Positions 27,652-32,918 of a stretch of DNA of 64,000 nucleotides are shown here, one piece after another. Origin of the DNA: Microbacterium invictum (GTDB lineage Bacteria; Actinomycetota; Actinomycetes; Actinomycetales; Microbacteriaceae); assembly GCF_034421375.1 (NCBI RefSeq), contig NZ_CP139779.1, forward strand, positions 2,046,001-2,110,000. Direction: 5' to 3'. The translations under genes and the position numbers were made by a program. The notes below the pieces were generated by a model. The model made no database searches, was not told the origin of the DNA, and saw nothing but the letters and a program-made list of their open reading frames with translations. The first letter of the stretch is position 1. Each line of letters starts with the position of its first letter.

Positions 27652-29724
27652 TCAGGCGTCGATGCGCTCGCGCGACAGTCGGTCGCTGGAGTCCACGATG
27701 AACTCGCGACGGGGCGCGACATCGGTGCCCATCAGCAGCTCGAAGATGCTCGATGCCACCTCGGCGTCCTGGACGCGCACACGGCGGAGGGTGCGTCCAC
27801 CGCGGTCCATCGTCGTGGTCGCGAGCTGATCGGCATCCATCTCGCCGAGTCCCTTGTAGCGCTGCACCGGCTCCTGCCAGCGCTTGCCCGCCTTGGTGAG
27901 CTTGGTGAGGAGGGCGTGCAGCTCCTGCTCGCTGAAGGTGTAGATGGTCTCGTTCGGCTTCGTGCCCGGGTTCATCACGATCACCCGGTGCAGGGGCGGC
28001 ACCGCCGCGAAAACCCGGCCGGCCTCGACGAGAGGCCGCATGTAGCGGAAGAACAGCGTCAGCAGGAGGGTGCGGATGTGCGCGCCGTCGACGTCCGCAT
28101 CGCTCATCAGGATGACCTTGCCGTAGCGGGCCGCGTCGAGGTCGAACGAACGCCCCGAGCCCGCCCCGATGACCTGGATGATCGAGGCGCACTCGGCGTT
28201 GGAGAGCATGTCGCTGATGGACGCCTTCTGCACGTTCAGGATCTTGCCGCGGATGGGGAGCAGCGCCTGGTACTCGCTGTTGCGCGCCAGCTTGGCCGTG
28301 CCCAGCGCCGAGTCGCCCTCGACGATGAACAGCTCCGACTCCGCGACGTCGTTCGTCCGGCAGTCGGCCAGCTTGGCAGGCAGGGAGGATGATTCGAGCG
28401 CGTTCTTCCGGCGCTGCGTCTCTTTGTGCGTCCGCGCCGAGATGCGCGCCTTCATCTCGGAGACGACCTTGTCCAGCAGCAGCGAGGTCTGCGCCTTGTC
28501 GTCGCGCTTCGATGAGGAGAATTTCGCCGCGAGCTCCCGGGTGACGACCTGCGTCACGATCTGCCGGACCGCCGGGGTGCCCAGCACCTCCTTGGTCTGA
28601 CCCTCGAACTGGGGCTCGGGCAGCCGGACCGTCATCACCGTGGTGAGGCCGGCGAGGATGTCATCCTTCTCGAGCTTGTCGTTGCCGACCTTGAGCCGTC
28701 GTGCGTTCTGCTCCACCTGTGCACGCAGCACCTTCATGAGCCCCTGCTCGAAGCCCTGCTGGTGCGTGCCGCCCTTCGGGGTGGCGATGATGTTGACGAA
28801 GGAGCGTGCGACGGTGTCGTAGCCCGTTCCCCACCGCAGGGCGATGTCGACCTCGCAGGTGCGCTCCACCTCGGTGGGGATCATCGCGCCCGTGGGCTGC
28901 AGCACGGGCACGGTCTCGGTGAAGACGCCCTCGCCCGTCAGGCGCCATACATCGGTGACACCGGCGTCAGGGGCCAGGAACTCCACGAACTCGGAGATGC
29001 CGCCTTCGAAGCGATAGGCCGTCTCGACCGGCTCACCGGCGCGCTCGTCGCGCACGACGATCTGCAGGCCGGGCACGAGGAAGGCCGTCTGGCGCACCCG
29101 CTGCTCGAGCTCCTCCAACGAGAACGCCGCGTCCCTGGTGAAGATCTGGCGGTCGGCCCAGTACCGGATACGCGTGCCCGTCGCGCCGCGCGCCGCCCTC
29201 CCGACCACGCGCAGCTCGCTGCTGTCTTCGAAGGGGGTGAACGGCGCGTCCGGGCCGGGACCGGCGAACACACCGGGCTCGCCGCGATGGAACGACATGG
29301 CGTAGGTCTTGCCGCCGCGGTCGACCTCGACGTCGAGGCGTTCGGACAGGGCGTTGACCACCGACGCCCCCACGCCGTGCAGACCCCCGGATGCCGCGTA
29401 GGATCCGCCGCCGAACTTGCCGCCCGCATGCAGCTTCGTGAAGACGACCTCTACCCCCGTGAGGCCGGTGCGAGGCTCGACGTCCACGGGAATGCCGCGG
29501 GCGCGGTCGCGCACCTCGACGCTGCCGTCATCGTGGAGGACGACATCGATGCGGTCGCCGTGACCGCCCAGTGCTTCGTCGACGGCGTTGTCGATGATCT
29601 CCCACAGGCAGTGCATGAGACCGCGGGCATCGGTCGACCCGATGTACATGCCCGGACGCTTGCGGACGGCCTCGAGTCCCTCGAGCACCTGGAGGTGGTG
29701 GGCGGAGTACTCAGCGGCGGTCAC
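27652..29724 (-). CDS. parE: DNA topoisomerase IV subunit B
   Basis: A 690-residue GHKL ATPase/TOPRIM subunit, partner of ParC. ATP-site motifs are DNAVDEALGG and GGLHGVGASVVNALS; TOPRIM motifs are VEGDSALGTAK and DADVDGAHIRTL. The start is put at the GTG of VTAAEYSAHHLQVLEG because TAGCCT ends 8 bases before it; a TTG nine bases upstream lies at the edge of that hexamer. It diverges from the small DUF7455 gene. Confidence 0.93.
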   Translation of the reverse strand: MTAAEYSAHHLQVLEGLEAVRKRPGMYIGSTDARGLMHCLWEIIDNAVDEALGGHGDRIDVVLHDDGSVEVRDRARGIPVDVEPRTGLTGVEVVFTKLHAGGKFGGGSYAASGGLHGVGASVVNALSERLDVEVDRGGKTYAMSFHRGEPGVFAGPGPDAPFTPFEDSSELRVVGRAARGATGTRIRYWADRQIFTRDAAFSLEELEQRVRQTAFLVPGLQIVVRDERAGEPVETAYRFEGGISEFVEFLAPDAGVTDVWRLTGEGVFTETVPVLQPTGAMIPTEVERTCEVDIALRWGTGYDTVARSFVNIIATPKGGTHQQGFEQGLMKVLRAQVEQNARRLKVGNDKLEKDDILAGLTTVMTVRLPEPQFEGQTKEVLGTPAVRQIVTQVVTRELAAKFSSSKRDDKAQTSLLLDKVVSEMKARISARTHKETQRRKNALESSSLPAKLADCRTNDVAESELFIVEGDSALGTAKLARNSEYQALLPIRGKILNVQKASISDMLSNAECASIIQVIGAGSGRSFDLDAARYGKVILMSDADVDGAHIRTLLLTLFFRYMRPLVEAGRVFAAVPPLHRVIVMNPGTKPNETIYTFSEQELHALLTKLTKAGKRWQEPVQRYKGLGEMDADQLATTTMDRGGRTLRRVRVQDAEVASSIFELLMGTDVAPRREFIVDSSDRLSRERIDA

Positions 29725-29732
29725 AATCTCCA

Positions 29733-29738
29733 AGGCTA
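29733..29738 (-). promoter_or_regulatory. -10 element upstream of parE, probably leaderless
   Basis: Minus-strand TAGCCT, 8 bases, then GTG. The hexamer's last base overlaps the alternative TTG start, which argues for the GTG. Confidence 0.45.
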
Positions 29739-29892: not shown

Positions 29893-30111
29893 ATGACACT
29901 TTCGACACCCTCTGAGACGGCCGTCCTCGAATACCGCCTGACCGCGGCGGACCGCTGCGATTCCTGCGGAGCTCAGGCCTACATCGCCGCCGAGGTGAAC
30001 GGCAGCGAGCTGCTGTTCTGCGCACACCACGGCCGCAAGTACGAAGAGAAGCTTCGTGCCGTCTCCACGTCGTGGCACGACGAGACCGCGCGCCTCAGCA
30101 ACGACGACTGA
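29893..30111 (+). CDS. DUF7455-type small zinc-binding protein
   Basis: A 72-residue protein with a CDSCGAQAY motif and a second Cys/His pair in LLFCAHHGRKYE, consistent with one zinc site. Small proteins starting with YRLTAADRCDSCG are conserved near parE/sigA in actinobacteria; the function is unknown. GGAGG lies 7 bases before the ATG. Its stop is 3 bases from the stop of the opposing racemase gene. Confidence 0.85.
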   Translation: MTLSTPSETAVLEYRLTAADRCDSCGAQAYIAAEVNGSELLFCAHHGRKYEEKLRAVSTSWHDETARLSNDD

Positions 30112-30114
30112 TCG

Positions 30115-31158
30115 TCACCGCATCCCCCGATAACGACGGGGCACCAGCGGAGAGACCCTGACCGCGATCTCCTCGCCGATCGTTCCGATCGATTCGGCGA
30201 GCGAGGTCGCGGTCGCTCCGTCTTCGGCTGCGCCGAACACGGTCACTCGGTCCCCCACCGCCGCACCGTCCCACCGGGTGACCTCGACACGCGATCCCGT
30301 GATCGCCGTCACCCGTCGAGGACCGGCGGGCGTCCCGACCGTGCATCCCACCAGCGTGCTGAACAGACCGTCGCGGGACCCCACGCCGATGCGGACCGTG
30401 TCCGCTCCCACCTCGGTGACGGGTGCCGTCCAGCGCGCCACCGGCCGAACGCCCAGGGCGGCCTCCTCCGGACCGCCGGCCGGACGGATGCCGTAGGCGA
30501 AGGCACCGACCCGGACGAGGTCGTAGCGGAACTCGGGCCGGGCGAACGACGCGGCGCTGGCCGACAGGTGCCGCCAACGCGGCCGCAGGCCGGCGTCCGC
30601 GGCGATCGCGAGCGCCCGTTCGAAGCGCGCTCGCGCACGATCGTCCTCGTCATCGGACGCCTCGGCGATGTGGCTCCAGATCCCCTCGACGCTGAGGACG
30701 CCCGCGTCCTCGGCGGCGACGGCCCGTGCGACCAGGTCGGACCAGTCCTCGGGGCGGACCCCGTTGCGGCGCAGTCCCGTGTCGATCTTCAGGTGCACGC
30801 GTGCCGTTCGGCCGCCCCGGATGCCCGTGAGAGCGGTGAAGAGCCGGAGATCGCCCACCCCGATATCGATGTCCAGGTCGACCGCCAGCGACGCCTGGGC
30901 CTCGTTCTCCGCGGTCCAGATGAACACCCGGGGCTCCGGGCCGACGAGGTCGCGCACGCGAGCCCCGGTGATGACGTCGAAGGCGCCGAACCAGCCGACG
31001 CCCTCCCGGCGTGCTCTGGCCACCACCGCATCGAGCCCGTGTCCGTAGGCGTCGTTCTTCACCACGAGCATGACCTCGGCCGGCGACACCGCCTCGTGCA
31101 CCCGGCGAAGGTTGTCGGCGAGCCGATCGAGATCCACCTCGAGCGCCGACCCGCTCAT
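30115..31158 (-). CDS. Alanine racemase-like protein lacking the catalytic tyrosine
   Basis: A 347-residue fold-type III PLP protein. The TIM-barrel half is intact: PLP lysine in VVKNDAYGHG (about residue 34), Arg in IDTGLRRNG, His in IWSHIAEASD, and VRVGAFAYGI. The C-terminal beta domain is degenerate. The SYG motif with the catalytic tyrosine (Tyr265 in the Geobacillus enzyme) and the GRxxMD motif are absent, and the final SYRVPR appears as SPLVPR. In alanine racemase that tyrosine reaches across the dimer into the partner's active site. The upstream gene, overlapping by ATGA, encodes exactly the missing part. I infer a two-gene heteromeric racemase; amino-acid specificity is unknown. Confidence 0.8.
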   Translation of the reverse strand: MSGSALEVDLDRLADNLRRVHEAVSPAEVMLVVKNDAYGHGLDAVVARARREGVGWFGAFDVITGARVRDLVGPEPRVFIWTAENEAQASLAVDLDIDIGVGDLRLFTALTGIRGGRTARVHLKIDTGLRRNGVRPEDWSDLVARAVAAEDAGVLSVEGIWSHIAEASDDEDDRARARFERALAIAADAGLRPRWRHLSASAASFARPEFRYDLVRVGAFAYGIRPAGGPEEAALGVRPVARWTAPVTEVGADTVRIGVGSRDGLFSTLVGCTVGTPAGPRRVTAITGSRVEVTRWDGAAVGDRVTVFGAAEDGATATSLAESIGTIGEEIAVRVSPLVPRRYRGMR

Positions 31159-31847
31159 CCCGATGCCACCCGACGAGCCCGGGCGCCGACGATGGCGACG
31201 ATCTCGCCGGCGGTGAGCCCGGTCGCCGCCGTCCACGTGTCCAGCGACGGCTCGTCGCTTTCGGGATCTCCGAAAAAGTGGGCCCGGTCACCCGGTTCGG
31301 CGCGGCCCGTCGACCCGAGATCGACGACGCACACATCCATGGCCACCCGTCCGATGACGGGTGCGTTCCGGCCCGCGATCCGGACGGCCACGCGGTTGCC
31401 GAGAGCGCGGACCACTCCCTGCGCATACCCGCCGGAGACGAGGGCGACCGTCGTGTCCGCTGCGGCGCGGAAGGTGTAGCCGTACGAGACGCCCTCTCCC
31501 GCCAGCACCCGCTTGGTACTGACCACCCGGCCCCGGAACGCCATGGCCGGCACCCCTCGGGATCCGGGCAGGCCGAATAGGTGCGCACCGTCGACCGCGT
31601 CGACATCAGACGTCGCCCACCCGAGGCCCGCCTCCGAGACCGCTCGGCGGACCTCCGCCTCGCCGTGCCCCCACCCGTCTGCCTCGAGCACCTCGGGGTC
31701 CACGGTGACGAGCCCGGCATCGTGAGCGGTCTCGAGGTTCGCCGCGAGAGCGGACCGACGGATGAGGGCGACCGGCCGGTGGTCGTGGGCCCCGCTGTAC
31801 TCCGAGACGTCGTGCGCCGTCGGACGCAGAGGATCCACCGACATCAC
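31155..31847 (-). CDS. Alanine racemase C-terminal-domain protein with vestigial barrel
   Basis: A 230-residue protein. Residues about 25-95 resemble the first strands and helices of the alanine racemase barrel, but the lysine motif is VLEADGWGHG: the PLP lysine is Glu and the following Tyr is Trp. Most of the barrel is missing. Residues about 100-230 are a well-kept C-terminal domain with GVSYGYTFRA (catalytic Tyr), SGGYAQGVVR and VIGRVAMDVCVVDLG. On its own it cannot bind PLP. It overlaps the downstream racemase-like gene by ATGA and complements its missing residues. GTG start, leaderless; an ATG follows directly. Confidence 0.8.
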   Translation of the reverse strand: MMSVDPLRPTAHDVSEYSGAHDHRPVALIRRSALAANLETAHDAGLVTVDPEVLEADGWGHGEAEVRRAVSEAGLGWATSDVDAVDGAHLFGLPGSRGVPAMAFRGRVVSTKRVLAGEGVSYGYTFRAAADTTVALVSGGYAQGVVRALGNRVAVRIAGRNAPVIGRVAMDVCVVDLGSTGRAEPGDRAHFFGDPESDEPSLDTWTAATGLTAGEIVAIVGARARRVASG

Positions 31848-31892: not shown

Positions 31893-32918
31893 ATGCCCTC
31901 GACCGGTCTCGGCCTCTCCTCCCGCCTCCGCTACCTCGCTTACCGCGCACGCCGGATCGACGTGGGATCGGTGTGGGAGCGGGCGAGGGAAGCCGCAGCG
32001 CAGCACGGCAAGTGGACGCCGGCGGTCGTGGTCGACATGCTCTACTCCGCGGGCTTGCGTCAGGTCGGCTTCCAGGACTACATCGACTACGACTTCGCGA
32101 TCCTCACCCGCCGGGAACGGGCGACCTTCATGACCCACCCGTTCTCCAATCAGCTGTCCCAGCGCTTCGACCACCCCGGCTACCGCCACCTGTTCCAGGA
32201 CAAGATCGCGTTCGACCGCGCCTTCTCCGAGCACCTCCAACGCGAGTGGATGGTCGTCGAACCAGGCAACGCCGACGAGGTCCGCGCCTTCGCCGAGCGA
32301 CACGGCACCATTGTCACCAAGGAGCCGATCGGACAGGCGGGGACCGGTGTGCATCGCTACCACGCCGCCGACATCACCGATTGGACGGACTTCCACGGGG
32401 GCCTCCTCGATCGCGGCGAGCTGCTCATCGAAGAGGTCATCGTGCAGCACGCCGATCTCGCGGCCGTCTGCCCGGGAACGGTCAACACCACGCGGGTGAC
32501 GGCCTTCTTCGACGGTGAGCGCACCCACATCCTCGCGATCGCGCAGAAGTTCGGCCGCGGCGCCGTCAGCGATCAGATGTCGTTCGGCGGCTTCTACACG
32601 ATGCTCGACGACGACGGTCGCGCCGTCGGCCCCGGATACGACTCGCACGGCCACGTGCACATCACCCACCCCGATTCCGGCTTCCCCATCGCCGACTTCC
32701 AGCTGCCGATGATGGCCGAGGTGGTCGCCTTCGTCGACCGCGTCGCTCGCGTCGTCCCGCAGGTGCAGTACGTCGGATGGGACATCGTGGTGACCCCCGG
32801 CGGTCCGGTGCTCGTCGAGGGGAACTGGGGCGCCGGCGTCTACGAGAACAAGCCGAGCGTGACCGGCATCCGCACCGGCCACAAGGCCCGTTATCTGGCC
32901 GCGACCGGACTGGCCTGA
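31893..32918 (+). CDS. ATP-grasp ligase (sugar-transfer-associated type)
   Basis: A 341-residue protein. Residues about 130-340 match the ATP-grasp family found in polysaccharide and cell-envelope gene clusters: TIVTKEPIGQAGTGVHRY (nucleotide-binding loop), LLIEEVIVQHADLA, NTTRVTAFF, and metal-binding VGWDIVVTPGGPVLVEGNW near the C-terminus. ATP-grasp enzymes join a carboxylate to an amine via an acyl-phosphate. The substrates are unknown. The divergent partner genes encode a racemase-like pair, so a D-amino acid is a reasonable candidate substrate by analogy with the D-aspartate ligase/aspartate racemase pair of Enterococcus; this is inference. No strong ribosome-binding site is seen. Confidence 0.75.
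   Translation: MPSTGLGLSSRLRYLAYRARRIDVGSVWERAREAAAQHGKWTPAVVVDMLYSAGLRQVGFQDYIDYDFAILTRRERATFMTHPFSNQLSQRFDHPGYRHLFQDKIAFDRAFSEHLQREWMVVEPGNADEVRAFAERHGTIVTKEPIGQAGTGVHRYHAADITDWTDFHGGLLDRGELLIEEVIVQHADLAAVCPGTVNTTRVTAFFDGERTHILAIAQKFGRGAVSDQMSFGGFYTMLDDDGRAVGPGYDSHGHVHITHPDSGFPIADFQLPMMAEVVAFVDRVARVVPQVQYVGWDIVVTPGGPVLVEGNWGAGVYENKPSVTGIRTGHKARYLAATGLA

Follow-up and report, generated by a model that had tools for sequence, protein, structure and literature searches.

Complementary active-site losses in two overlapping genes of Microbacterium invictum point to a heteromeric racemase with relatives across the Microbacteriaceae

Alanine racemases of the Alr/DadX type (PF01168 plus PF00842; TIGR00492) are homodimers with shared active sites. 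As described in parts of PMC3245724 and PMC3485190, Tyr265 of Alr reaches into the active site of the partner subunit, and the backbone NH of Met312 contacts the bound carboxylate (PMC3245724). A third residue, Tyr354, acts as a gate that shuts the alanine pocket, and passages of PMC3485190 give Thr or Ala at this gate in lysine and broad-specificity racemases, namely Thr391 in Lyr (4dza) and Ala393 in Bar (4dyj), both of which have the Alr fold. The gene pair described here, A and B of M. invictum, differs from Alr in that two different chains each carry half a site: A lacks the Tyr and the Met, B lacks the Lys and retains little of the barrel, one active site is predicted per pair, and the gate Tyr is replaced by Glu. 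The second racemase lineage to which we assign the pair, for which we coined the label Alr2, resembles Lyr and Bar in having replaced Tyr354; however, Lyr and Bar are homodimers of complete chains with a Thr or Ala gate, whereas the pair consists of split chains with an acidic gate.

Among described systems, the trypanosomatid prozymes appear by analogy to be the nearest concept. In the accounts given in parts of PMC3663545 and PMC5201418, the AdoMetDC-prozyme and deoxyhypusine synthase pairs are, as is proposed for A and B, obligate paralogous pairs with one dead member, and the arrangement evolved for two enzymes within one trypanosomatid lineage. A and B share the defining features, since one of the two paralogues has lost its catalytic lysine and they obligately co-occur, although the enzymes and folds are different. 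Prozymes act by allosteric activation of a single catalytic partner, as parts of PMC3663545 describe, while A and B show reciprocal losses, and a catalytic base is predicted to come from the dead partner. Our literature search found no heteromeric alanine racemase, in agreement with the first-pass annotation of this DNA, which knew of no characterised example. Nor did it offer an enzyme for the D-ornithine or D-diaminobutyrate of type-B cell walls, which in the Microbacteriaceae contain D-ornithine, D-lysine or diaminobutyrate according to passages of PMC10757982 and PMC7033078.

The window, i.e. the whole stretch of 64,000 nucleotides that was analysed, comes from a genome of 3.53 Mb in one contig that encodes a complete Alr elsewhere. 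The features of the locus are collected in Table 1. B begins with GTG followed by an ATG codon, and its overlap with A likely reflects translational coupling. A matches the full Ala_racemase_N domain of Pfam (residues 8-226), but of Ala_racemase_C it retains no more than the end (profile 75-127 of 127), while B matches the full Ala_racemase_C (profile 1-126 of 127) and has no Pfam match to Ala_racemase_N. Both fall under the curated TIGR00492 equivalog cut-off of 168 bits (A 123.7, B 98.8). Their top PDB sequence matches are alanine racemases, and databases currently name A "alanine racemase" and B either the same or "alanine racemase C-terminal domain-containing protein". The first-pass annotation had read A as a protein with a PLP lysine and a full barrel that lacks the SYG tyrosine and the GRxxMD motif, on which open reading frame, Pfam and alignment agree (A has no equivalents of Tyr265 and Met312), and B as a protein that carries the tyrosine and methionine motifs beside an altered lysine motif, which holds as well. 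The ATP-grasp gene adjoins the pair in the compared Microbacterium loci and is also kept by most genomes that lack the pair; we make no claim that it belongs to the A-B enzyme.

Table 1. Features of the A-B locus (positions in the window)
Feature	Position	Strand	Remark
B subunit	31155..31847	minus	230 aa; barrel-eroded alanine racemase paralogue
A subunit	30115..31158	minus	347 aa; racemase with complete barrel
Start/stop overlap of B and A	31155..31158	minus	4 nt
A Lys34 codon	31057..31059	minus	PLP lysine; motif VVKNDAYGHG
A Glu166 codon	30661..30663	minus	entry-loop acidic residue, catalytic His163 +3
A Glu329 codon	30172..30174	minus	at Tyr354 position
B Tyr122 codon	31482..31484	minus	Tyr265 equivalent; motif GVSYG
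B Met170 codon	31338..31340	minus	Met312 equivalent; motif GRVAMD
B Glu55 codon	31683..31685	minus	at lost PLP lysine position; motif VLEADGWGHG
ParE-like topoisomerase subunit	27652..29733	minus	downstream of A; family in 28/29 clustered loci
DUF7455 gene	29893..30111	plus	small; convergent with A
ATP-grasp protein (PF14397)	31893..32918	plus	divergent neighbour

Residues are numbered according to Geobacillus Alr, transferred by alignment to the complete Alr of the window's own genome. B Tyr141 is the equivalent of Tyr284. In Streptomyces Alr, Lys38 aligns with the lysine of A and Tyr270 with the tyrosine of B. With B as the query, named genomes yielded 255 relatives, of which the best 80 (77 labelled Microbacterium) were kept and, with the window, make up the near-window alignment. 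In these best 80 of 255 plus the window, VSYG and the letters G, R, A, M and D of GRxAMD are invariant in all 81 B rows, while the lysine position holds Arg, Ala, Glu or another residue and never Lys in the 79 readable rows; 37 readable rows from other loci lack it as well. Conversely, A keeps its lysine in all 80 rows of the same set that reach the position, and the in-cis set of Lys39, Tyr43, Lys129, Arg136, His166 and Arg219 is complete in 79 of 81, the other two rows being cut by a contig end (L013) or missing their first part (L081). Tyr265 is absent from each of the 80 near-window A rows (of 81) that extend past its region. Over a total of 143 A rows (81 near-window, 39 A halves from other loci and 23 further), the 141 that are long enough all have the six in-cis residues, and of the 141 that reach the Tyr265 region none has this residue; the contig-cut A half of L123 ends near that region. 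The barrel, PLP lysine and in-cis set of Alr are thus found in A alone, and Tyr265 and Met312 in B alone, so that the complementary losses pointed out in the window hold residue by residue across the Microbacteriaceae. Separately, residues 57-62 of B (31662-31679), the stretch DG/A-W-GHG behind the lost lysine, are kept despite the loss of the barrel, and the Tyr43 position of B is Trp in 76 of 81 rows.

The gene order and spacing of the pair are highly regular. A lies downstream of B in all 80 loci (best 80 of 255), and with gene starts as chosen by script the spacing is -4 in 76 of them, the rest being -13, -1, +59 and L081 (8064-9749, Microbacterium sp. NIBRBAC000506063), the sole one of these named loci with a frameshifted A, due to either sequencing error or recent loss. 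Besides this split B-A form, other loci of the family have split pairs in A-B order (L098, L168, L194-L197), B-A fusions (L119, L170, L172) and A-B fusions (L117, L118, L120, L164-L167, L189-L193), in which the half with the lysine comes first and is followed by the half with the only SYG and GRxAMD. B proteins themselves range from a full-length barrel with Lys replaced by Thr (L178), through degenerate barrels (L093, L115, L173, L174, L181), to forms without a recognisable barrel (L175, L179, L180), the 230-aa form of the window being a minimal B. Several genera have complete Alr2 genes, which shows that a split enzyme is not needed for the Alr2 reaction, and some carry tandem pairs of complete racemases (L109-L112, L125, L126, plus 19 of 20 loci of a later alignment; at L184 the pattern did not detect the Tyr in one of the genes taken as complete, and its group mates L217-L220 have the Tyr by alignment). 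In genus group g32 (L214, L217-L220), both tandem complete racemases lack the Lys129 equivalent, having Gly, Cys or Val, and keep the other in-cis residues examined.

A and B are also retained and lost as a unit. At E <= 1e-50, B has a match in 206 of 247 Microbacterium genomes, and the inspected loci show the pair in over 20 further genus groups of the family. From the 41 Microbacterium genomes under the B cut-off, 20 were examined: in 19, A and B are both missing and a complete Alr is present, while the twentieth (G405) has a diverged A-B pair; the genes around parE are in place in all 20. Occurrence of A without B, named in the first-pass annotation as what would speak against a heteromer, was looked for across the family. 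The A profile matched 111 times, in 106 of 299 genomes (E <= 1e-118), and sorting of these matches by hand gave 33 complete genes (6 + 7 + 20) and 78 A genes. B adjoins 77 of the latter, 65 by coordinates and 12 by inspection (two of these being fused to B), and the remaining A gene, in G124, stops 45 bases short of a contig end, so no orphan A was found among the 78 A genes of these 299 genomes. Two B genes without a listed A had one adjoining on inspection. In a ParE tree, the pair-lacking Microbacterium form mainly two clades, of 4 and 14, except that the pair-bearing L083 lies inside the larger one and one lacking row stands apart. As a side observation, two pair-lacking genomes, G339 (L221) and G366 (L222), carry a third racemase-like gene, which is complete but lacks Lys129 and encodes Gln or Ala at the Tyr354 gate; these are possible broad-specificity racemases, and another enzyme may replace the function of the pair in both genomes.

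Certain genomes appear to depend upon the two-part arrangement altogether. No complete Alr was found by TIGR00492 in 7 of 7 g21, 6 of 6 g78 and 2 of 2 tested g74 genomes, where all matches are split or fused forms (e.g. L117, L189-L192, L098, L194-L197). In g21, the A-B fusion is the only Alr in six of the seven genomes and stands alongside a split pair in the seventh, and its single Tyr is located in the B half. D-alanine is normally essential; therefore, a two-part or fused racemase must work in these genomes unless they have another route to D-alanine, from which it could come. Genus group g50 presents a separate case: at 1e-40, the broad B profile matched none of its six genomes (G049, G119, G174, G223, G265, G302), and a different search that covered five of the six gave only one weak match in each (4e-18 to 9e-20), which suggests that the alanine racemase of this group is unusual or strongly diverged.

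To place these forms, a quick tree of 70 barrel rows was used, leaving out L158 (two complete tandem genes whose profile match was broken in two) and the contig-cut L123. A housekeeping clade, Alr1 (SH-aLRT 99), includes the halves in A-B order, and the other side of its branch holds the A proteins of the split B-A pairs together with six complete genes, i.e. Alr2, the lineage to which, by this placement, the window pair belongs. For the A halves, placing all two-part forms in one clade is rejected (p-AU 5.7e-5), while a single clade of the B-A forms (0.56) and one of the A-B-order forms (0.74) are not. The B-domain tree does not reject a common origin of all B halves (p-AU 0.25), so the candidate explanation of one origin for all two-part forms is discarded for the A halves and not for the B halves. 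The trees support at least two origins of the two-part arrangement. The A-B pair of g78 looks like a decayed Alr1-Alr2 tandem, since its B groups (100) with the complete Alr2 genes of tandem genomes in the C-terminal-domain tree and its A groups with Alr1 in the barrel tree.

The two lineages differ at the mouth of the pocket. The Tyr354 position is Tyr in all 61 Alr1 rows (21 complete, 9 derived A halves, with 9 and 22 added later) and Asp or Glu in all 147 Alr2 rows with a residue there (79 near-window A, 29 other A and 6 complete Alr2, with 14 and 19 added later), both being alignment counts, as a loose pattern check gave other letters when it matched elsewhere in the tail. The entry-loop position three residues after His166 is Asn or Gly in Alr1 and likewise Asp or Glu in Alr2 (81/81, 30/30 and 6/6 rows). 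Two acidic residues at this site would suit a substrate that carries a further amino group, and because of the acidic gate of Alr2, alanine is probably not the substrate of the window pair. A two-part racemase that acts upon alanine after all, as a redundant or regulated D-Ala supply, would suit the family resemblance, the best PDB matches and the gate Tyr kept by Alr1-derived split and fused forms. However, we consider it unlikely, as the window's own genome already has a complete Alr, the 19 examined Microbacterium genomes that have no pair keep theirs, every Alr2 row with a residue at the gate has an acidic one, the lineage has a second acidic residue in the entry loop, and in many other genera the pair adjoins genes for a MurT-like ligase and a GatD-like protein. 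Together with these neighbours and the D-diamino acids of the type-B walls of this family, the acidic gate and entry loop suggest that the window pair is probably a D-diamino-acid racemase for type-B peptidoglycan.

The neighbourhood and wall types add several observations to this substrate assignment. PF08353 found no MurT in the window's own genome. In Microbacterium, a CofE-like gene (PF01996) and usually the ATP-grasp gene (PF14397) lie near the pair in the place that murT-gatD takes in many other genera (window 31893-32918, L129-L148); the two sets look like alternatives, and the CofE-like/ATP-grasp set occurs in pair-lacking genomes too. The GatD-like protein next to MurT has Ala or Ser at the position of the glutaminase nucleophile, which is Cys in this glutaminase family, in 7 of 18 frames (motif A/S-GGWQLLG; L091, L092, L101, L104, L106, L108, L119), while the frame of L090 reads GGGWE and the pattern found no such motif in the other 10 of the 18. 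Where a MurT and a dead GatD are encoded next to a diamino-acid racemase, the group joined to D-Glu may be a D-diamino acid rather than ammonia. The peptidoglycan link is awkward in that the pair is present (L037, L076) in M. enclense, recorded with L-lysine in parts of PMC10757982, and A is also found in a protein under the name M. hominis (P0135). Passages of the same source give L-lysine clusters in Microbacterium, which the two pair-lacking clades of the ParE tree might resemble, but M. enclense and "M. hominis" count against a simple rule in which loss of the pair equals an L-lysine wall.

Three further explanations concern the roles of the two chains. PLP enzymes of this fold are capable of other chemistry once the Tyr is removed, and A retains the whole barrel with the PLP site, so A alone might be a homodimeric PLP enzyme with a different acid/base group and B a regulatory or structural pseudoenzyme. 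We find this improbable, given that the absolutely conserved set of B is precisely the trans-acting Tyr and Met (81/81) while its barrel decays, that no A was found without B in the genomes searched, and that the fusions of the seven g21 genomes, as the sole Alr or with a split pair, have their single Tyr in the B half. Even less probable is a role for B in partnering and regulating the housekeeping Alr through mixed A-Alr or B-Alr dimers. The C-terminal domain of B could in principle fit the barrel of a complete Alr, but B goes missing together with A and not with Alr, genomes without a complete Alr keep B, and the fusions join B to A; in addition, the tree distances of A and B correlate beyond those of ParE (73 loci, partial r 0.58), a weak argument as the genes are linked. 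That the pair is a broken, functionless alr copy in decay, to which B's missing lysine and barrel and the frameshifted A of L081 might point, is scarcely credible in light of complementary residues that are absolutely conserved over highly diverged sequences, the -4 overlap, the joint absence elsewhere, and the presence of B in most Microbacterium genomes and of the pair in so many other genus groups; conservation rules out a pseudogene or sequencing artefact.

We therefore return to the obligate heteromer with one site per A-B pair, as the first-pass annotation had proposed and as is supported by the complementary losses, the retention and loss of A and B as a unit, the fusions in both orders and the genomes with two-part forms only. 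Judging from the sequences, A and B very probably constitute an obligate heteromeric PLP racemase with one site per pair, the window copy being of the Alr2 lineage and probably using a diamino acid. In the simplest stoichiometry, A1B1, the barrel of A would hold PLP on Lys34 and the C-terminal domain of B would place Tyr122 and Met170 over the cofactor, mimicking the mutual contribution of subunits in homodimeric alanine racemase. The second, symmetry-related site would have been given up, as the C-terminal domain of A lost the trans residues and the barrel of B eroded. Such an enzyme would have originated when a complete racemase was duplicated and the copies then underwent complementary losses, in a series leading from tandem complete genes to a dead-lysine partner with a barrel, then to a shrunken partner and sometimes to a fusion. 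The window copy would most likely racemise ornithine, diaminobutyrate or lysine and feed the D-diamino acid to the type-B bridge.

Beyond what was noticed in the window, the system is family-wide, with at least two apparent origins, and the window copy lies in an acidic-gated second lineage. On balance, the Microbacteriaceae seem to hold a two-component racemase family in which reciprocal loss occurred independently in the housekeeping Alr (A-B order, split or fused) and in an acidic-gated racemase for the D-diamino acid of type-B peptidoglycan (B-A order), with all conversion steps surviving in extant species, from tandem complete enzymes through a dead-lysine partner, an eroded barrel and a lost barrel to re-fusion as a single pseudo-heterodimeric chain. 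If true, nature would here offer a very clean example of a shared-site homodimer turning into an obligate heterodimer by reciprocal loss, complete with intermediates and repeated origins, and reconstitution could put the neutral-ratchet idea of heteromer evolution to the test. Moreover, the D-ornithine and D-diaminobutyrate of the type-B wall, an old chemotaxonomic marker, would gain their missing racemase. Since databases label A and B as alanine racemase or as a C-terminal-domain protein, current models of the cell wall in these genera are probably incorrect.
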